Assembly: GCA_900016675.1 (NCBI GenBank)
Contig: LN483072.1
Span: forward strand, 310,001 to 374,000
Origin: Arthrobacter saudimassiliensis
Lineage (GTDB): Bacteria > Actinomycetota > Actinomycetes > Actinomycetales > Micrococcaceae
Length of the DNA stretch: 64,000 nt
Direction of reading: 5' to 3'
Shown: piece by piece, positions 8,292 to 56,542 of the stretch
Numbering within the stretch: the first letter of the stretch is position 1
Layout of the letters: the number at the start of each line of letters is the position of its first letter
Notes under the pieces: model-generated
Told to the model about the DNA's origin: nothing
The model's input: only the letters and a program-made list of their open reading frames with translations
Databases searched by the model: none
Position numbers and translations under genes: made by a program

Positions 8292-9173
8292 ATGAGCGAG
8301 CAGACCGTAGAACCGAACCTGTCCCCCGTCATCGACCTTTTGGACCTCGGACCCGTGCACCGGCTGGGCTACGGTGCCATGCGCATCGTGGGCGACGGCG
8401 TGTGGGGCGAGCCCGAGAGCCGCGGCACCGCCGTCGAGGTGGTGCGCCGCGCCGTCGAACTGGGCGTCGACTTTATCGACACCGCCGACTCCTACGGGCC
8501 GAACATCAGCGAGGAGATCATCGCCGAGGCCCTCTACCCCTACCCGGAGGGGCTGCGGATCGCCACCAAGGTGGGCTTCGTGCGCACCGGTCCGGACGTG
8601 TGGGTGCCGGTCGGCCGGCCGGAGTACCTGCGCCAGCAGACCGAGCTGAGCCTGCGCAAGCTCAAGGTCGACGCGCTGGACCTGCTGCAGCTGCACCGGA
8701 TCGATCCCAAGGTCGACGCCGAAGAGCAGTTCGCCGTCCTGCGGGACCTGCAGCAGGAGGGCAAGGTGAAGGCCCTGGGCCTGTCCCAGGTCACCGTGGA
8801 GCAGCTGCAGGCCGCGGAAAAGTATTTCACCGTGTCCACCGTGCAGAACCGCTACAACCTCACCGACCGCTCTTCCGAAGACGTGCTCGAGTACGCCGAG
8901 GCCAACGGCATCGGCTTCATTCCCTGGGCGCCGATCTCCGCCGGCGAGCTGGCGCAGCCGGGCGGACCGGTGGACGACGCCGCCCGCCGGCTGGGTGCCA
9001 CCACCTCCCAGGTCGCGCTGGCCTGGCTGCTGCGCCGCTCCCCCGTGATGATGCCGATTCCCGGCACCGGCTCGGTGCAGCACCTGGAGGAGAACATGGC
9101 CGCCGCGTCGCTGCAGCTCGACGACGCCACCTTCGAGGAGCTCGACGCCGCCGGCCGCGCCGCCGCGAAGTAA
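8292..9173 (+). CDS. Aldo/keto reductase
   Basis: NADPH-dependent oxidoreductase of 293 residues with a TIM barrel. The catalytic tetrad is visible: Asp and Tyr in [10 protein letters not shown], Lys in IATKVGF and His in LLQLHRID. The C-terminal [13 protein letters not shown] segment is the cofactor-binding region. ATG 8292 lacks a clear ribosome binding site. The 260-base divergent gap to the VOC gene contains a tandem TTGCCGAG pair (8136-8143 and 8146-8153), which may be regulatory. The next gene encodes a DJ-1/PfpI protein 43 bases downstream, so the two may form a carbonyl-stress unit; this is inferred. Confidence 0.9.
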
Positions 9174-49129: not shown

Positions 49130-49235
49130 TGCCTCCGCCTTCCGTTTGAGCCTGGTTCGAGCCTATCCGCCGAAGCGGAGGCTCGCGGAGGGGACGCGGA
49201 GGCCTGCACCGGGGAAAACGTAAAAAGTATCAATA

Positions 49236-49265
49236 GTTGACTTTTTCAACGGTTAAGGGTTCGAT
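49236..49265 (+). promoter_or_regulatory. couL promoter with CouR-type operator
   Basis: TTGACT (49237-49242), 17-base spacer, TTCGAT (49260-49265). Inside lies the inverted repeat GTTGA-CTTTT-TCAAC (49236-49250). The 15 bases TTGACTTTTTCAACG recur exactly before couN (52824-52838), with further matches downstream. So both operons share a promoter/operator module. Confidence 0.78.
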
Positions 49266-49303
49266 GAAAACTCTTGTGATCCACACCACGCAAAGGAGCA
49301 GCG

Positions 49304-50812
49304 GTGAACCTAGGAATCGGTTCCTGGCCGGCCCGCCGGGCCCGGGTGCGCCCGGACAGCACGGCGATCGTCTTCGAGGACCGGCGGTTCAGCTACGCCG
49401 AGGTCGATGCCCGCGTGAGAAGCCTGGCCAATGCCCTGAGCAACGCCGGGGTCCGCCGCGGCGACCGGGTGGCGTACGTCGGCTTCAACCATCCTGCCCT
49501 TCTGGAGACCTTCTTCGCCGCCGGGCTGATCGGCGCCGCCTGCGTGCTGGTCAACCCCCGCCTGGCCCGCGACGAGGTGGCCTACATCCTGGGCGACTGC
49601 ACGCCCGCCGTCGTCGCCTACGGTGCCGAGCAGGCGGCCAACGCCGAGGACCTGGCCCGGCAGCTGCCGGTCGGCACGTGGCTCAGCGTCGACGGCGGCG
49701 GCCCCGGCAGCGACTATGAGCAGTTCCTGGCGGGCGGCGGAACCGAAGCCGTGGAGGCCGAGGTGCACGAGGACGACCTGGCCCTGATCATGTACACCTC
49801 CGGCACCACGGGCCGGCCCAAGGGCGCCATGCTCAGCCACCGCAGCCTGTTCTACCAGTACATGAACGCCCTGATCGGCGTGGACCTGCGCCAGGACGAG
49901 GTGCACCTGGCCGCGGCTCCGCTGTTCCACATCGCCGGCCTGAACATGATGACCCTGCCGACCTTTACCCTCGGGGGAACGATCATCATCCACCGCGGCT
50001 TCAAGGCCGAGGCGGTCCTGGCCGAGATGGCGGCATCCCGGGTGACCAGCGCCTTCCTGGTGCCGGCCATGCTGGACGCCCTGTCCGGGCATCCGGACTT
50101 CGCCGGCGCCGACCTGTCCTCGGTCCGCGGCTTCATGGTCGGCGGCTCCCCGCTGCCGGAACGGACCATCCGCACCTGGCAGCAGAAGGACGTGGCGATC
50201 ATGCAGGGCTTCGGCATGACCGAAACCGCCCCCGGCGTCTGCATGCTCGAGCCCCGGGACGGCACGGTGAAGGCCGGCAGCGCCGGCCGCCCGCACTTCT
50301 TCACCGAGTACCGGCTGCTCGACGCCGGCTGCTCCCCCGTTCCGGAGGGCACGCCCGGCGAGGTGGTGGTCCGCGGCCCCAACGTCATGAGCGGGTACTG
50401 GAACAACCCCGAGGCCAGCGCCGCCGCCCTGGCCGGCGGCTGGTACCACTCCGGCGACGTCGCCGTCGTCGACGAGGACGGCTACATCTGGATCAAGGAC
50501 CGGATCAAGGACATGTACATCTCCGGCGGCGAGAACGTCTACCCCGCCGAAGTGGAGAACGCCCTGCTGAACCTGCCCGGCGTCGTCGAGGCCGCCGTCG
50601 TCGGCGTGCCCGATGAACGCTGGGGCGAGTCCGGCCGCGCCTACGTGGTGCTGGCCGACGCCGCGGAGGCCGCCGACGGCGCCGGGCTGCGCGAGCAGCT
50701 GCGCAGCCGGCTGGCCGGCTACAAGCTTCCCCGCGAGGTCCTCGTGGTGGAGCAGCTGCCCCGGACCACCACCGGCAAGATCCAGAAACACGTGCTCCGC
50801 TCCGGCTCCTGA
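49304..50812 (+). CDS. couL: Acyl-CoA synthetase, probable p-hydroxycinnamoyl-CoA synthetase (CouL-like)
   Basis: AMP-forming ligase, 502 residues. P-loop MYTSGTTGRPKGAM, GFGMTETAPG, YHSGDVAVVDEDGY, and the C-terminal Lys in RTTTGKIQKHVL. GTG 49304 follows AAAGGAG. It activates a carboxylic acid for the following CoA-dependent steps. Alone it could be any medium/aryl acid ligase; the neighbours (MHS transporter, MarR regulator, SDR, amidohydrolase, MaoC) reproduce the coumarate set couLT/R/NOM of Rhodococcus jostii, hence the call. Confidence 0.86.
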   Translation: MNLGIGSWPARRARVRPDSTAIVFEDRRFSYAEVDARVRSLANALSNAGVRRGDRVAYVGFNHPALLETFFAAGLIGAACVLVNPRLARDEVAYILGDCTPAVVAYGAEQAANAEDLARQLPVGTWLSVDGGGPGSDYEQFLAGGGTEAVEAEVHEDDLALIMYTSGTTGRPKGAMLSHRSLFYQYMNALIGVDLRQDEVHLAAAPLFHIAGLNMMTLPTFTLGGTIIIHRGFKAEAVLAEMAASRVTSAFLVPAMLDALSGHPDFAGADLSSVRGFMVGGSPLPERTIRTWQQKDVAIMQGFGMTETAPGVCMLEPRDGTVKAGSAGRPHFFTEYRLLDAGCSPVPEGTPGEVVVRGPNVMSGYWNNPEASAAALAGGWYHSGDVAVVDEDGYIWIKDRIKDMYISGGENVYPAEVENALLNLPGVVEAAVVGVPDERWGESGRAYVVLADAAEAADGAGLREQLRSRLAGYKLPREVLVVEQLPRTTTGKIQKHVLRSGS

Positions 50813-50865
50813 CCCGGTCCCGTCCGCTTTCGCCCCTCCCTCTCCCCCGCACCCTAGGAACAGCC

Positions 50866-52197
50866 ATGCCCACAGCAAGCACGACCCTCCCCGGCCTGAG
50901 CGGAAAGCAGCGGCAGAGCGAGGCCCGCAAGGTCATCCTCTCCAGCTACCTCGGCTCGACCATCGAGTTCTACGACTTCCTGCTCTACGCCTCGGCCTCG
51001 GCCCTGGTCTTTCCGCAGGTGTTCTTCCAGGACCTGGATCCGCTGGCCGGCACCATCGCCGCCTACGGAACCTTCGCGGCCGGCTACCTCGCCCGCCCGC
51101 TCGGCGGGGCGATCTTCGGCCACTTCGGCGACCGGCTGGGCCGGAAGAAGATGCTCATCCTCTCGATGCTGATCATGGGCATCGCCTCCACGCTGATCGG
51201 CCTGATCCCCGGCTCGGCCCTCATCGGCAGCTGGGGCGCGGTCATCCTGGTGCTGCTGCGCGTCTGCCAGGGCATCGCCGTCGGCGGCGAATGGGGCGGC
51301 GCGGCGCTGATGGCGCTGGAGCACTCGGAGAAGGGCAGGCGCGGCTTCGCGGCGTCCTTCGCCAACGCCGGCGCCCCCTCGGGTGCCGCGCTGGGCACCG
51401 TCGTGCTCGGCATCTTCTCCACCCTGCCGGAGGACCAGTTCCTCTCCTGGGGCTGGCGCGTGCCGTTCCTGCTCTCGGTGGCGCTGCTGGTGGTCGGCCT
51501 GGTGGTCCGGGCCAGGATCGCCGAAAGCCCGATCTTCGAGGCCGCCGTGGCCAAGGAGGCCGCAGAGCCGACCAAGCCGAAGGTCCCCATCCTGGAGGTG
51601 CTGCGCCGGCCCAAGGCGCTGATCTTCACCATGCTCGCCGGCGCCTCCGGGTTCGCGCTCCAGGTCTTCCTGTCCACCTTCTCGGTCAGCTATGCGGTGG
51701 AAAACGGGGCGGCCCGCCCCGTGGTGCTCTACGCCTTCGCCCTCGCCTCGGTGATCAGCGTGGTGTTCGTGGTGCTGATGGGCCGGGTCTCCGACCGGTA
51801 CGGGCGGCGGCCGGTGATGGTCGTCGGCCTGGTCGGCTTCATCGCCGTCATCTTCCCCATGTTCGGCTGGCTCGGCTCCAACAACCTGCTGCTGATCTTC
51901 CTGGCCTTCACCGTGGGCCTGGCCTTCCACGCCGCGATGTACGGGCCGCTGGCCGCCTTCATTTCCGAGCAGTTCGGCACCAGCGCCCGCTACACCGGCG
52001 CCTCCCTGGGCTACCAGTTCGCCACCCTGCTCGGCGCGGGCTTCACGCCGACCATCCTGGCCACGCTCTACGCCGGCGCGGACCGCTCGGTGACGCCGGT
52101 GGCCGGCTACCTTGCAGCGCTGGCGGCGCTGAGCACGCTGTTCATCCTGCTGACCCGCGAGTCCAAGGACTACGACCTCGAGACCCACGAGCACTGA
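50866..52197 (+). CDS. couT: MFS transporter, MHS family (probable hydroxycinnamate importer, CouT-like)
   Basis: Twelve-helix symporter, 443 residues. STIEFYDFLLYASASALVFPQVFF in helix 1 and GGAIFGHFGDRLGRKKMLI (motif A) are typical of metabolite:H+ symporters (shikimate, aromatic acids). RVCQGIAVGGEWGGAALMALEHSEKGRRGF is the conserved MHS loop. ATG 50866 with AGGAA upstream. 53 bases after couL, so in the same operon; aromatic acid uptake is inferred. A strong hairpin follows. Confidence 0.87.
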   Translation: MPTASTTLPGLSGKQRQSEARKVILSSYLGSTIEFYDFLLYASASALVFPQVFFQDLDPLAGTIAAYGTFAAGYLARPLGGAIFGHFGDRLGRKKMLILSMLIMGIASTLIGLIPGSALIGSWGAVILVLLRVCQGIAVGGEWGGAALMALEHSEKGRRGFAASFANAGAPSGAALGTVVLGIFSTLPEDQFLSWGWRVPFLLSVALLVVGLVVRARIAESPIFEAAVAKEAAEPTKPKVPILEVLRRPKALIFTMLAGASGFALQVFLSTFSVSYAVENGAARPVVLYAFALASVISVVFVVLMGRVSDRYGRRPVMVVGLVGFIAVIFPMFGWLGSNNLLLIFLAFTVGLAFHAAMYGPLAAFISEQFGTSARYTGASLGYQFATLLGAGFTPTILATLYAGADRSVTPVAGYLAALAALSTLFILLTRESKDYDLETHEH

Positions 52198-52212
52198 CCG
52201 CGGCAGAACACC

Positions 52213-52253
52213 GAAGCCGTCCTTCCCGTGCAGTGCGCGGGAAGGACGGCTTC
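52213..52253. terminator. Hairpin terminator between couT and couR
   Basis: 16-bp stem GAAGCCGTCCTTCCCG (52213-52228) / 52238-52253, loop of 9 bases. Placed between convergent genes and able to serve both. Confidence 0.85.
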
Positions 52254-52276
52254 GTCCGGTGGAGTGCGGCTGGAGG

Positions 52277-52750
52277 TCAGAGCGCCACTTTGCTCAGCAG
52301 CCGGTGCAGCTCCCGGCGCTGGCCGGCGTCGAGGGCGGCCAGGGACTCGGCGGTCGCATCCTGCACCACGCCGCGGGCGCGCTCGTACAGCCGGCGGCCG
52401 GCGGCGGTGGGAACGATGATCTTGGACCGCCTGTCCCGCGGATCCGGCTGCCGGTCGACGGCGCCCCGGGCCTCGAGCTCATCCACGATCGCGACGATCT
52501 GGCTGGGGTCCAGGGCCAGGAACTGGCTCAGCTCCCGCTGGGTGGGGGCCTGTCCGCTGCAGGCGAGGGAGAGGACCGAGTAGGAACGGACCTTCAGGTC
52601 CAGCTCGGCGAGCCGGCGGTTGGCCGCCGAGGAGCCGAGCGACGATGCGCGGGCCATCAGGAAGAACGGCTCGGAGGCGAGGTCGGTGTCGGCAAACCTG
52701 ACGGCGCTCTCAACGGCGTCCGCCGCGGCGGAGGCGGGGCGGGGAGTCAT
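52277..52750 (-). CDS. couR: MarR family regulator (CouR-like)
   Basis: 157 residues. Winged HTH with QRELSQFLALDPSQIVAIVDELEARGAVDRQPDPRDRRSK, the MarR recognition helix and wing (DPRDRR). ATG 52750 has AAAGGA upstream. Convergent with couT and divergent from couN. CouR of Rhodococcus is a MarR repressor released by p-coumaroyl-CoA; the shared inverted repeat before couL and couN makes the same role likely here. Ligand not shown by sequence. Confidence 0.87.
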   Translation of the reverse strand: MTPRPASAAADAVESAVRFADTDLASEPFFLMARASSLGSSAANRRLAELDLKVRSYSVLSLACSGQAPTQRELSQFLALDPSQIVAIVDELEARGAVDRQPDPRDRRSKIIVPTAAGRRLYERARGVVQDATAESLAALDAGQRRELHRLLSKVAL

Positions 52751-52823
52751 GACTGTCCTTTGGTCGGAAGAGAGCTTAACTCTACGAAACACCACCGGCG
52801 CATCTAAATGCAAACCTCAATGA

Positions 52824-52852
52824 TTGACTTTTTCAACGATTAGCGGTCGAAT
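52824..52852 (+). promoter_or_regulatory. couN promoter with CouR-type operator
   Basis: TTGACT (52824-52829), 17-base spacer, TCGAAT (52847-52852). Inverted repeat TTGA-CTTTT-TCAA (52824-52836) overlaps the -35 box. Matches the couL promoter through TTGACTTTTTCAACG and continues as RTTA-GG-TCGA in both. Confidence 0.78.
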
Positions 52853-52909
52853 GGCTGCAGAGCAGCGGACAAGCGCTCCGCAGCCGGCCACGTAACCAAA
52901 GGAGTTTCC

Positions 52910-53854
52910 ATGGCAGAGCAGAACACGGCCCCCCTCGCCGGCAAGGTCGCCGTCGTCACCGGGTCCGGCCAGGGCCTGGGCCTGGCGTACGCACAGGAGC
53001 TCGCACGGCAGGGCGCCGCCGTGGTGATCAACGACGTCAGCGAGGACGCCGCCCGCGCCGCCGTGGAGTCCATCACCGCCGCCGGCGGGCAGGCCACCGC
53101 CGTCGTCGCCGCCGTCGGCAGCACCGAGGCCGCCCGCGCCCTCGTGGACGGCGCCGTCGCAGCCTTCGGCGGCCTGGACATCCTGGTGACCAACGCCGGC
53201 GTGCTGCGGGACAAGTCCCTGCTGAAGATGACCGACGAAGACTTTGACTTGGTCATCCAGGTGCACCTGCGCGGCACGTTCACCTGCGTGCGGGAAGCCT
53301 ACCGCCATTTCAAGGAGAACGGCGTCGCCGGGCGGATCATCGCCATCGGCTCTCCCACCGGCCAGTACGGCAACTTCGGGCAGACCAACTACGCGGCGGC
53401 CAAGGCCGGCATCGTGGGCATGGTGCGCACCTGGGCGCTGGAAATGAAGAAGTCCGGCGTCACCGCCAACGCCGTCATCCCGGTCGCCGCGACCGCCATG
53501 ACCCGCACCGTGCCCTACTTCGCCGCCGCCATCGACGCGCAGGACCGGGGCGAGGCGATGCCCTCCTTCTTCCGTCATGACCTCGGCTTCGGCACCGCCG
53601 ACGACGTCGCCGGCCTGATCGCCTACCTCGCCTCCGACGCCGCCGCCGGCATCACCGGCCAGGCCATCGGCGCCGGCGGCGACCGCCTGCAGCTGTTCAG
53701 CCACCCGACGCCGACGGTCACCGAGTACGCCGACGGCGGCTGGAGCTTCGAAGCCCTGGCCGAGCGGTTCCCGCAGCTGGCCGAAGGCCACCTGGCCCCG
53801 GTCGGGGAAACCTTCCCGCCGCTGCCCGCCGAGCTGCAGCCTGCCGACAAGTAG
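52910..53854 (+). CDS. couN: SDR family 3-hydroxyacyl-CoA dehydrogenase (CouN-like)
   Basis: 314 residues. GSGQGLG cofactor loop (18-24), NAGVLRD, Ser148, Tyr161 and Lys165 in YAAAK. The VLRDKSLLKMTDEDFDLVIQVHLRGTF stretch resembles the (3R)-hydroxyacyl-CoA dehydrogenase domain of peroxisomal multifunctional enzyme type 2. The 60-residue C-terminal tail is longer than in simple SDRs. AAAGGAG precedes ATG 52910. In the coumarate route it would oxidise the 3-hydroxy-3-arylpropionyl-CoA made by CouM to the beta-keto form. Confidence 0.87.
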   Translation: MAEQNTAPLAGKVAVVTGSGQGLGLAYAQELARQGAAVVINDVSEDAARAAVESITAAGGQATAVVAAVGSTEAARALVDGAVAAFGGLDILVTNAGVLRDKSLLKMTDEDFDLVIQVHLRGTFTCVREAYRHFKENGVAGRIIAIGSPTGQYGNFGQTNYAAAKAGIVGMVRTWALEMKKSGVTANAVIPVAATAMTRTVPYFAAAIDAQDRGEAMPSFFRHDLGFGTADDVAGLIAYLASDAAAGITGQAIGAGGDRLQLFSHPTPTVTEYADGGWSFEALAERFPQLAEGHLAPVGETFPPLPAELQPADK

Positions 53855-53864
53855 GAGCACCGGC

Positions 53865-54794
53865 ATGTACGAATACGGGCTGGACCTCGCGTCGCTGGAC
53901 GCGATCGATATGCACGTGCACATTGAGTGCTCCGACCACGGGCACGCCTCGCTGCCGCCGGCGCTGACCGAGGCCAGCGCCAAGTACTTCAAGGCGGAGG
54001 ACCGCTCCCCCTCGCTGGACACCATCGCCGAGCGCTACCGGGAATGGAACATGGCCGCCGTCGTGTTCACCGTCGACGCGACCACCGCCCTGGGCCACCC
54101 GCCGAACTCCATCGAGGAGATCGCCGAGGGCGCCGCCCGGAACAACGACGTGCTGATTCCGTTCGGGTCGGTGGACCCGCTGCAGGGAGCGGCCGCCGTC
54201 GAACGCGCAAAGCTGCTGGTCCGCGAGTACGGGGTCAAGGGCTTCAAGTTCCACCCCTCGCTGCAGGGCTTCGACCCCTCGGACCAGCGGTTCTATCCGC
54301 TGTACGAGGCGATCCAGGAGCTGGAGGTGCCCGCCCTGTTCCACACCGGGCAGAACGGCATGGGGGCCGGGCTGCCCGGCGGATACGGCATCAAGCTGGC
54401 GTACTCGAACCCGCTGCTGCTCGACGCCGTGGCCGCCGACTTCCCGCATCTGCAGGTCATCATGGCCCACCCCTCGGTGCCCTGGCAGGAGGAGGCCAAC
54501 TCGATCGCCACGCACAAGGCGAACGTCTGGATCGACCTCTCCGGCTGGTCGCCGAAGTACTTCCCGGAGTCCCTGGTGAAGGCCTCCAATGCGATGCTGC
54601 AGGACAAGGTGCTCTTCGGCACCGACTATCCGCTGATCACCCCGCAGAAATGGCTGGGCGCCTTCGAGCAGCAGAGCTTCAAGGACGAGGTGCGGCCCAA
54701 GATCCTCAAGGCCAACGCGGTGCGGCTGCTCGGCCTGGAGTCCGGCGTACCGGCCGGGCAGGCCAGCAGGGCCGCCGCCGGGGTGCGGGCATGA
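53865..54794 (+). CDS. couO: Amidohydrolase-2 family hydrolase (CouO-like beta-ketoacyl-CoA hydrolase)
   Basis: 309 residues, TIM barrel with metal ligands: IDMHVHIE at the N-terminus, KGFKFHPS, ALFHTGQNG, IMAHPSVPW and LFGTDYPL. The ACMSD-like family contains decarboxylases and C-C hydrolases. In p-hydroxycinnamate catabolism of Rhodococcus, CouO hydrolyses 4-hydroxyphenyl-beta-ketoacyl-CoA to 4-hydroxybenzoate and acetyl-CoA, replacing a thiolase. The gene order SDR-amidohydrolase-MaoC matches. Starts 10 bases after couN and overlaps the next gene (ATGA). Confidence 0.86.
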   Translation: MYEYGLDLASLDAIDMHVHIECSDHGHASLPPALTEASAKYFKAEDRSPSLDTIAERYREWNMAAVVFTVDATTALGHPPNSIEEIAEGAARNNDVLIPFGSVDPLQGAAAVERAKLLVREYGVKGFKFHPSLQGFDPSDQRFYPLYEAIQELEVPALFHTGQNGMGAGLPGGYGIKLAYSNPLLLDAVAADFPHLQVIMAHPSVPWQEEANSIATHKANVWIDLSGWSPKYFPESLVKASNAMLQDKVLFGTDYPLITPQKWLGAFEQQSFKDEVRPKILKANAVRLLGLESGVPAGQASRAAAGVRA

Positions 54795-56032
54795 GTCCCG
54801 CCCCGGCGGCCCGGGCCGCGGCCGGCACGGCGGGCTCGGACGCCGAGGCGGAGTCCGACCGGCTGTATCCGGACTGCGACCCCTACGGCATCGAGTTCGG
54901 GCTCACCGAGGCCGAGCGGGCGCCGCTGCGCCGGCTTCGGGCGGTGCTCGACACCGAGGTCTATCCGCTGCTGGCCGAGTACTGGGAGAAGGGCGAGTTC
55001 CCGTATTCGATCGCGCCGTCGCTGCAGGCGCTGGGCCTGATGGAGCCCAAGGAGGTCGCCGACGCCGGCGCCGAACCGAGCGCGCTCTACCACGGGTTCC
55101 GGATCTTCGAGCTGGCCCGCACCGACGCCAGCGTGGCGACGTTCTACACCGCACAGGCGGGCCTGTTCCGCACCGCCTGCCGGGTGGGCGGCACCGCCGA
55201 TCAGTTCGCCGCGTGGGACCCGGCCATCACCCGGTTCGAGATGACCGGCGTGTTCTGCCTGACCGAACCCGACCACGGCTCGGACATCGCCGGCGGGCTG
55301 GCCACCCGGGCCCGCCGCGACGGCGACGAGTGGATCCTCGACGGCGCCAAGCGCTGGATCGGCGGCGCGCACAGCGCTGACCGGCTCGCGGTCTTCGCCC
55401 GCGACGAGGCCGACGGGCAGGTCAAGGGCTTCCTGGTGGACCGCCGCGCCCCCGGCGTGAGCCTGGCGAAGATCCACGGCAAGACCTCGCTGCGGATGAT
55501 GCAGAACGCCGACATTCGGCTCGACGGCGTCCGGGTGCCCGAGGAATGGCGGCTGGGGAACGTGCAGTCCTTCCGGGACGTGGCCGCCATGCTGCGGCAG
55601 ATGCGCTCCGACGTCGCCTGGATCGCCGCCGGGCTGCAGGCCGGCGCCTACGAGGCCGCGCTGAGGTACGTGCGCGGCCGGGAGCAGTTCGGCAAACCGC
55701 TGGGCGGCTTCCAGCTGGTGCAGGAGAAGCTGGCGCGGATGCTGGACAACGTCACCGCCTCCCTGGCCATGGCCGCCGCCCTCGCCGGGCGCCAGCAGCA
55801 GGGCATCTACCGGGACCAGGACTCGGCGCTGGCCAAGATGGGCAACAGCCGGCGGATGCGCGAGACCGTCGCCCTGGCCCGCGAAGTGGCCGGCGGCAAC
55901 GGCATCACCCTGGCCGCCGACGTCGCGCGCTTCCACGCCGATGCCGAGGCCGTCTACTCCTACGAAGGCACCCATGAGATCAACGCGCTTGTGGTCGGCC
56001 GCTCCCTCACCGGCCTCAGCGCCTTCGCCTGA
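54791..56032 (+). CDS. Acyl-CoA dehydrogenase in the coumarate operon
   Basis: 413 residues. VFCLTEPDHGSDIAGG, LDGAKRWIGGAHSAD, REQFGKPLGGFQLVQEKLARML and YSYEGTHEINALVVG with the catalytic Glu. Overall similar to the GCDH-like branch. ATG 54791 overlaps couO (ATGA). It lies between couO and couM, so it probably desaturates a dihydro-hydroxycinnamoyl-CoA (3-(4-hydroxyphenyl)propionyl-CoA) to the cinnamoyl-CoA that CouM hydrates. That would widen the substrate range to phenylpropanoids; inferred. Confidence 0.86.
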   Translation: MSPAPAARAAAGTAGSDAEAESDRLYPDCDPYGIEFGLTEAERAPLRRLRAVLDTEVYPLLAEYWEKGEFPYSIAPSLQALGLMEPKEVADAGAEPSALYHGFRIFELARTDASVATFYTAQAGLFRTACRVGGTADQFAAWDPAITRFEMTGVFCLTEPDHGSDIAGGLATRARRDGDEWILDGAKRWIGGAHSADRLAVFARDEADGQVKGFLVDRRAPGVSLAKIHGKTSLRMMQNADIRLDGVRVPEEWRLGNVQSFRDVAAMLRQMRSDVAWIAAGLQAGAYEAALRYVRGREQFGKPLGGFQLVQEKLARMLDNVTASLAMAAALAGRQQQGIYRDQDSALAKMGNSRRMRETVALAREVAGGNGITLAADVARFHADAEAVYSYEGTHEINALVVGRSLTGLSAFA

Positions 56033-56065: not shown

Positions 56066-56542
56066 ATGACCGAGATCCAGACCCAGCCCGCCGTCGTCGT
56101 CCCCTTCGAAGAGGTGCAAAGCCTGGTGGGCCGGAACCTCGGCTACTCGCAGTACCGCGAGATCACCCAGGACCAGATCAACACGTTCGCCGACGCGACC
56201 GATGACCACCAGTGGATCCACACCGACCCGGAGAAAGCGAAGGACGGACCGTTCGGCGCGCCGATCGCGCACGGCTTCCTCACCCTGTCGCTGCTGATTC
56301 CGATGTGGACCGAGCTGCTGGACGTCACCGGCGTGAAGACCAAGGTCAACTACGGCCTGGACAAGGTGCGCTTCACGAACCCGGTGAAGGTGGGCGCACG
56401 GGTGCGGATGACCGTGACCATCACCGATGTGCAGGAGGTCAAGGGCAACGGCGTGCACCTGGTGGCCGACGCCGTCATCGAGATTGAGGGCGAGGAGCGG
56501 CCCGCCGTGGTGGCGACGTTCCTGAACCGGTTCTACGCCTAG
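56066..56542 (+). CDS. couM: MaoC family enoyl-CoA hydratase (CouM-like)
   Basis: 158 residues, single hot-dog domain. YREITQDQINTFADATDDHQWIHTDPEKA carries the hydratase-2 active-site Asp and His, followed by GPFGAPIAHGFLTLSLL. Expected to hydrate p-hydroxycinnamoyl-CoA to the 3-hydroxy acyl-CoA for CouN. AAAGGA precedes ATG 56066. Last gene of couNO-ACAD-couM; its stop overlaps that of the convergent next gene. Confidence 0.9.
   Translation: MTEIQTQPAVVVPFEEVQSLVGRNLGYSQYREITQDQINTFADATDDHQWIHTDPEKAKDGPFGAPIAHGFLTLSLLIPMWTELLDVTGVKTKVNYGLDKVRFTNPVKVGARVRMTVTITDVQEVKGNGVHLVADAVIEIEGEERPAVVATFLNRFYA

Follow-up and report, generated by a model that had tools for sequence, protein, structure and literature searches.

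CouR of Rhodococcus jostii RHA1 is a MarR-family repressor of the cou genes. The four cou promoters of this strain contain the inverted repeat cATTGA--TCAATg, which has a 5-base-pair (bp) spacer and overlaps the predicted -35 box; CouR binds the repeat in vitro and deletion of couR leads to expression of couN without inducer (PMC4737184). A related arrangement is found in a hydroxycinnamate gene cluster of Arthrobacter saudimassiliensis, which spans 49.2-56.5 kb of the 64,000-nucleotide stretch analysed here (the window; contig LN483072.1, positions 310,001 to 374,000). The Arthrobacter genome to which it belongs has 3,552,112 bases in 3 contigs and is 99% complete. A repeat found upstream of two operons of the cluster is very probably the operator of a CouR-type repressor and doubles as the -35 element, CouR blocking both operons until a hydroxycinnamoyl-coenzyme A (CoA) is present, and likewise an unlinked operon, sbp-couL2, coding a substrate-binding protein and a second acyl-CoA ligase.

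The locus has much in common with that of RHA1. In both, the MarR gene and couN are divergent and flank a single box, the inverted repeat has a 5-bp spacer and overlaps the -35 element, the pathway is of the amidohydrolase type of deacetylation, and the regulators share their DNA-reading residues and the basic residues at positions 36 and 38. A CouR operator overlapping the -35 box is already known in kind from RHA1, and the finding in the window is an instance of this kind because its sites share the published CouR-box layout. Unlike RHA1, which has promoters at couN, couR, couT and couH, the window has one box for couL-couT and one for couN-couO-acyl-CoA dehydrogenase-couM. The phenol-binding residue pair also appears to differ from RHA1, an acyl-CoA dehydrogenase gene is included in the operon, and the unlinked sbp-couL2 operon carries a box. 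The phd cluster of Corynebacterium glutamicum has an acyl-CoA dehydrogenase gene too, the likeness to the window cluster being one of gene content alone. Its regulator PhdR is, as described in PMC7593625, a MarR repressor of phenylpropanoid catabolism that is released by p-coumaroyl-CoA, and the phd promoter elements were deduced there from CouR systems. The CouPSTU system of Rhodopseudomonas palustris resembles the present one in having a hydroxycinnamate substrate-binding protein within a coumarate gene set (PMC3610893). Unlike CouPSTU, the binding protein here is of the NMT1 type without adjoining permease, and it is likened to CouP by description, not by sequence. Similar enzymes are also reported in a study on piperine, the term 'regulator' being absent from its main text (PMC12753220). 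Among the open-licence PubMed Central papers listed in searches, only PMC4737184 is relevant by title and abstract to CouR in Arthrobacter or Micrococcaceae, and none was seen to describe a family-wide footprint or an unlinked regulon member.

The 15-mer TTGACTTTTTCAACG is found at positions 49237-49251 and 52824-52838 of the window. The core of both sites is TTGA-CTTTT-TCAA, inside a longer quasi-palindrome of 21 bp (Table 1). The box arms read GTTGA-CTTTT-TCAAC and ATTGA-CTTTT-TCAAC with TTGACT as -35 element, and their outer positions vary (G/A, C) as they do in relatives. A preliminary description of this DNA, made from the sequence alone, had reported 15 identical bases at the two positions, where a -35 box lies within an inverted repeat and a 17-base spacer leads to a -10-like box, and a MarR gene between the two operons; all these features are borne out, the -10-like hexamers being TTCGAT and TCGAAT. 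The sequence GTTGACTTTTTCAAC at up to three mismatches has three matches in the window, when 0.16 are expected from shuffles; none of 100 shuffles reaches three matches and the largest number is two. The matches have 0 and 1 mismatches at the two cou sites and 3 at the third, position 8466.

Table 1. Features of the cou cluster and sites reported by profile R1. Coordinates are those of the window, except for the site on contig C2.
Feature	Position	Strand	Evidence or remark
CouR box 1 (predicted), 21-bp quasi-palindrome before couL-couT	49233..49253	+	profile R1, 29.2 bits
-35 hexamer TTGACT, putative couL promoter, within box 1	49237..49242	+	
-10-like hexamer TTCGAT, 17 bp after the couL -35	49260..49265	+	fits T...AT pattern of relatives
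couL, acyl-CoA ligase (AMP-binding), GTG start, probably for hydroxycinnamates	49304..50812	+	
couT, MFS transporter, probable hydroxycinnamate uptake	50866..52197	+	uptake judged from its place
couR, MarR-family regulator, CouR orthologue	52277..52750	-	Pfam, PDB matches, alignment
Possible -10 of couR, TTGCAT, 17 bp from minus-strand -35 TTGAAA (52831-52836) inside box 2	52808..52813	-	
CouR box 2 (predicted), 21-bp quasi-palindrome between couR and couN	52820..52840	+	profile R1, 34.5 bits
-35 hexamer TTGACT, putative couN promoter, within box 2	52824..52829	+	
-10-like hexamer TCGAAT, 17 bp after the couN -35	52847..52852	+	fits T...AT pattern of relatives
couN, SDR-family dehydrogenase	52910..53854	+	
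couO, amidohydrolase-superfamily hydrolase	53865..54794	+	
Acyl-CoA dehydrogenase (PhdE-like)	54791..56032	+	PhdE is the presumed label
couM, MaoC-type hydratase	56066..56542	+	
R1 site	49229-49268		29.2 bits
R1 site	52816-52860		34.5 bits
R1 site	C2:823621-823662	-	27.4 bits; TTGACA, 17 bp, TCTCAT

The cluster has the order couL, couT, couR (minus strand), couN, couO, acyl-CoA dehydrogenase, couM, with couR located between couT and couN. The Pfam classes of its genes were computed and comprise CoA ligase, hydratase, dehydrogenase, amidohydrolase and transporter; the cou names were given by class and order in analogy to RHA1. CouO is an amidohydrolase (PMC4737184). The genes couL and couT seem to form a single operon served by box 1, no box preceding couT. 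By analogy to RHA1, the catabolic genes of the cluster would be under CouR control.

The regulator is a MarR-type wHTH protein with Pfam matches to PF01047/PF12802. Its best matches among all PDB chains are 3fm5 (82.8 bits) and 5cyv (82.7 bits), followed by one of 40.7 bits. The only entry named CouR in the match table is the MarR-family protein 6c28, with a far weaker match (34.1 bits), which we take to be CouR of R. palustris. Entries 3fm5 and 5cyv are those of CouR from R. jostii RHA1 (PMC4737184). According to that article, the R. palustris regulator has kept neither Arg36 nor Arg38, and the CouR homologue of Arthrobacter FB24 has a lysine at position 36. In RHA1 CouR the basic residues at these two positions bind both the DNA and the CoA moiety. 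The window regulator and its relatives were aligned in 42 rows, with residue numbers following RHA1 CouR. The predicted base-reading residues D65, S67 and Q68 (D81, S83 and Q84 in the window) are invariant in 42/42 rows, as is N27; position 36 is K or R in 40/42 (K53 in the window) and R38 is kept in 39/42 (R55). In one genus a further CouR paralogue, which shares 50-52% identity with the window regulator, is encoded beside couT-couL (L071:5998-6453, L120:5998-6420, L121:5998-6420). It has a serine in place of the essential Arg38 and may bind another ligand or operator.

The regulator protein was searched in 295 genomes of the family. The 80 regions picked from the listed matches, mostly the best ones, and six named loci (L012-L017 of 9) yield 86 loci, many of which come from close relatives and are not independent. 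Divergent adjacent couR and couN genes are found in 74 of these loci and 12 loci are without such a pair; with the window this gives 75 gaps, and the box is present in 73 of them. The figures on promoters refer to 68 promoters obtained by dropping four duplicates and the window, or to 69 when the window is included. As ten gaps have more than one box, in which case the TTGAC box was taken, the figures on orientation refer to the 63 gaps, counting the window, that have a single box. In 63/63 of them the spacer begins with C, so that TTGAC faces couN, and in none does it end in G, a base that would turn TTGAC towards couR; each of the ten gaps with two or three boxes also holds one TTGAC box. 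The palindrome extends to 21 bp, with A at -4 in 65/68 promoters and T at +16 in 59/68. The -35 element is followed at a distance of exactly 17 bp by a T...AT hexamer in 65/69 promoters, and at none of the seven other spacings tried, a fixed distance that supports operator and -35 being one element. Where couL (close homologues, at least 63% identity) stands outside the couN operon, a box begins 54-72 bp from the match start in 7/7 loci, and where couL is inside that operon (L085, L086) it has no box of its own (2/2 loci). In one genus two CouR-type boxes lie side by side before couN, their starts 18 bp apart (L105:5915-5945, L107, L108, L109), which suggests two dimers.

The 68 promoters, window excluded, were used to build profile R1, whose E-values are rough owing to a shortened calibration. 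At E<=10 it reports three sites only in the whole genome, all before hydroxycinnamate-type genes (Table 1). The module thus extends outside the window, beyond what the preliminary description had covered, to a third copy elsewhere in the genome. That description had proposed a genome scan for similar sites, with occurrence at unrelated promoters as the outcome that would speak against an operator of the cou genes. Such a scattering is not supported. The pattern RTTGAN5TCAAY occurs at 11 places in the genome versus one for the reversed-pattern control, and three of the 11 are the R1 sites. A narrower pattern, TTGANNNNTTCAA, also occurs at 11 places, two of them in the window.

Within the genus, R1 at E<=0.01 has matches in 21/29 genomes. 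A close regulator (E<1e-45) is encoded by 18 of the 24 genomes that were also searched for it, and R1 matches are found in 18/18 of these, a co-occurrence that is partly circular as promoters of about 15 of the 18, or identical ones, belong to the training set (G000, G204 and G241 are the positive genomes outside it). The negative side is not circular: R1 has matches in 0/6 genus genomes without a close regulator, only the best 150 candidates having been scored in most genomes. By hand tally 46 of the 47 R1 matches in the genus adjoin couR, couN/couO, couL or sbp, two of them (G296:C1:3432985, G204:C5) being placed from layout only. Regions were fetched for 16 of the 47 matches, chosen to examine weak and new ones, and cou-type genes follow the box in 14; a contig end truncates L184, and in L190 the operon is of the phosphonate type. 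Several species of the genus have a further operon of couN and/or couO with an acyl-CoA dehydrogenase gene, which is preceded by its own CouR-type box and has no couR in the fetched region (L182, L183, L185-L189).

The third site of the genome precedes an unlinked operon coding an NMT1-type substrate-binding lipoprotein (sbp) and a second acyl-CoA ligase (couL2), the latter 45% identical to couL (L145:5970-8655; G000:C2:820969-823654). Its other flank is the end of a long same-strand gene, malQ-like as judged by eye only. No ABC permease gene is found on the same strand beside sbp-couL2 in L145; the gene that comes next, on the other strand, codes an ABC ATPase. In L181, from one other genus, couL2 is followed by two permease genes and an ATPase gene. 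Similar permeases are encoded in the genome of the window at C2:795502-796847 and C3:19444-20855, each beside its own binding protein. A homologous sbp-couL2 pair follows couM, in the same order, in 13/86 loci (12 genomes), and there are other loci with one of the two genes at this place. The best 30 sbp loci were examined, several of them from close relatives, and were considered unlinked when no other cou gene lies within the 1.5-kb flanks. The box precedes 8/8 unlinked sbp operons, among which at least two pairs (L161/L162 and L151/L154) have identical box regions. Linked copies have no box within 300 bp in 17/22 cases and have one in 5/22, these five sbp genes standing 233-272 bp from couM. 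The box mostly appears where sbp genes stand apart from the main operon, and sbp-couL2 is a predicted member of the CouR regulon. In one relative a vanillate O-demethylase-like pair, as classified by Pfam, is found downstream of sbp-couL2 (L178:6074-8272); it would process vanillate derived from ferulate.

The identification of the repeat as a CouR operator, put forward in the preliminary description, is supported by the PDB matches of the regulator, the published box layout and the conserved couR-couN gaps, binding itself being expected by homology. Its further proposal that the repeat overlaps the -35 element at both promoters agrees with the layout of the RHA1 CouR box. Directly observed are the sites with their layout and conservation, the fact that they are nearly confined to cou-type genes and regulator-bearing genomes, and the conservation of the residues predicted to read the DNA. 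A number of points weigh against this assignment. The genome has eight other exact matches to RTTGAN5TCAAY, although R1 reports none of them at E<=10: three lie inside coding frames with Pfam matches (IF-2, a LacI-type regulator and a DUF499 protein), another three overlap FliF, NUDIX and ribosomal L5 frames in their upstream part and may be intergenic, and a Pfam search gave no match for the two remaining ones (L131, L136). Two of the 75 gaps (L077, L129) are without exact box; the right arm that comes after their TTGACA is degenerate. Conservation of the couR-side promoter is poor, with T...AT at 17 bp in 10/69, and autoregulation of couR from the shared box is uncertain. To these add the partial circularity of the co-occurrence and the behaviour of the profile, which misses sites such as the couL box of G131 (L093:2974), unreported at E<=0.01, and matches in one genome TTGACA-17-TCGAAT before a phosphonate-type ABC operon (L190:3050-3062, 18.8 bits), probably by chance. 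Finally, the RHA1 contacts to the phenol hydroxyl, D10 and H117, correspond to E27 and T133 in the window regulator and vary over the 42 rows, the T133 assignment being extrapolated to one residue past the end of the phmmer alignment.

The last point bears on the ligand, as the inducer may differ from that of RHA1. Operator and regulator would then be correctly assigned and the natural inducer would be another CoA thioester, for example cinnamoyl-CoA or phenylpropionyl-CoA, instead of p-coumaroyl-CoA. The acyl-CoA dehydrogenase of the operon would suit saturated phenylpropanoids. Of the 39 rows with a residue at the D10 position, 31 nevertheless keep an acid, and the pathway genes are of the hydroxycinnamate deacetylation type; another inducer is rather unlikely. 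The site itself could be read differently. The conservation of both TTGACT and T...AT, 17 bp apart, is what a strong promoter without repressor site would display, but TCAA in the promoter spacer pairs with TTGA in 73/75 gaps (the box was the search criterion, so that the evidence is its frequency and not that it is invariant among boxes), the symmetry reaches out to 21 bp, and R1-type promoters go unreported in the 6/6 genus genomes without the regulator. We know of no sigma-factor requirement for TCAA in a promoter spacer, and a promoter alone is a very unlikely explanation indeed. It is also very unlikely that the regulator acts as an activator at the site or that another MarR paralogue is the true binder. 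Some MarR proteins do activate (PMC4737184) and the genome has six further matches to the regulator among 12 candidates scored, but the site covers the -35 element, a position for a repressor, it lies between couR and couN in 73/75 gaps, and deletion of the gene shows the RHA1 orthologue to be a repressor (PMC4737184). Chance repetition of an AT-rich 15-mer has practically no probability and is rejected, given three matches versus 0.16 expected from shuffles and the conservation in relatives.

A CouR-type operator fused to the -35 element would operate as follows. In each promoter the left half-site would also serve as -35 element (TTGACT), so that a CouR dimer on the 21-bp palindrome would keep RNA polymerase from transcribing couL-couT and couN-couO-acyl-CoA dehydrogenase-couM, and possibly couR as well. 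Hydroxycinnamates entering the cell would be converted to CoA thioesters by couL or couL2. The hydroxycinnamoyl-CoA would occupy CouR and cover its DNA-contacting basic residues, CouR would leave the operator and the operons would be turned on, the unlinked sbp-couL2 operon being under the same switch. What this scheme says on binding and repression, on a CoA thioester as ligand and on occlusion is carried over from RHA1 by analogy.

A wider role can be envisaged, about which we have somewhat more doubt than belief. CouR might command a movable regulon in the family, its operator fused to the -35 element preceding cou genes that have gone from the main operon. It would have recruited sbp-couL2 in this way as a capture-and-activate pair, maybe with the permeases of another ABC system, for high-affinity uptake of hydroxycinnamates. 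About 23 kb from sbp-couL2 the genome encodes two similar permeases, next to a binding protein of their own.

What is added here to the RHA1 system is a footprint for the family as a whole and the prediction of an unlinked regulon member, a modest extension of the regulon. The CouR repressor-operator pair, which is used in p-coumaroyl-CoA biosensors, gains a precise footprint in which the operator has 21 bp and the -10 element is locked 17 bp after the -35 element. The sbp-couL2 operon provides a testable regulon prediction, and a well-studied pair of repressor and operator, known from Rhodococcus, is followed into a family of soil actinobacteria and many of its members.

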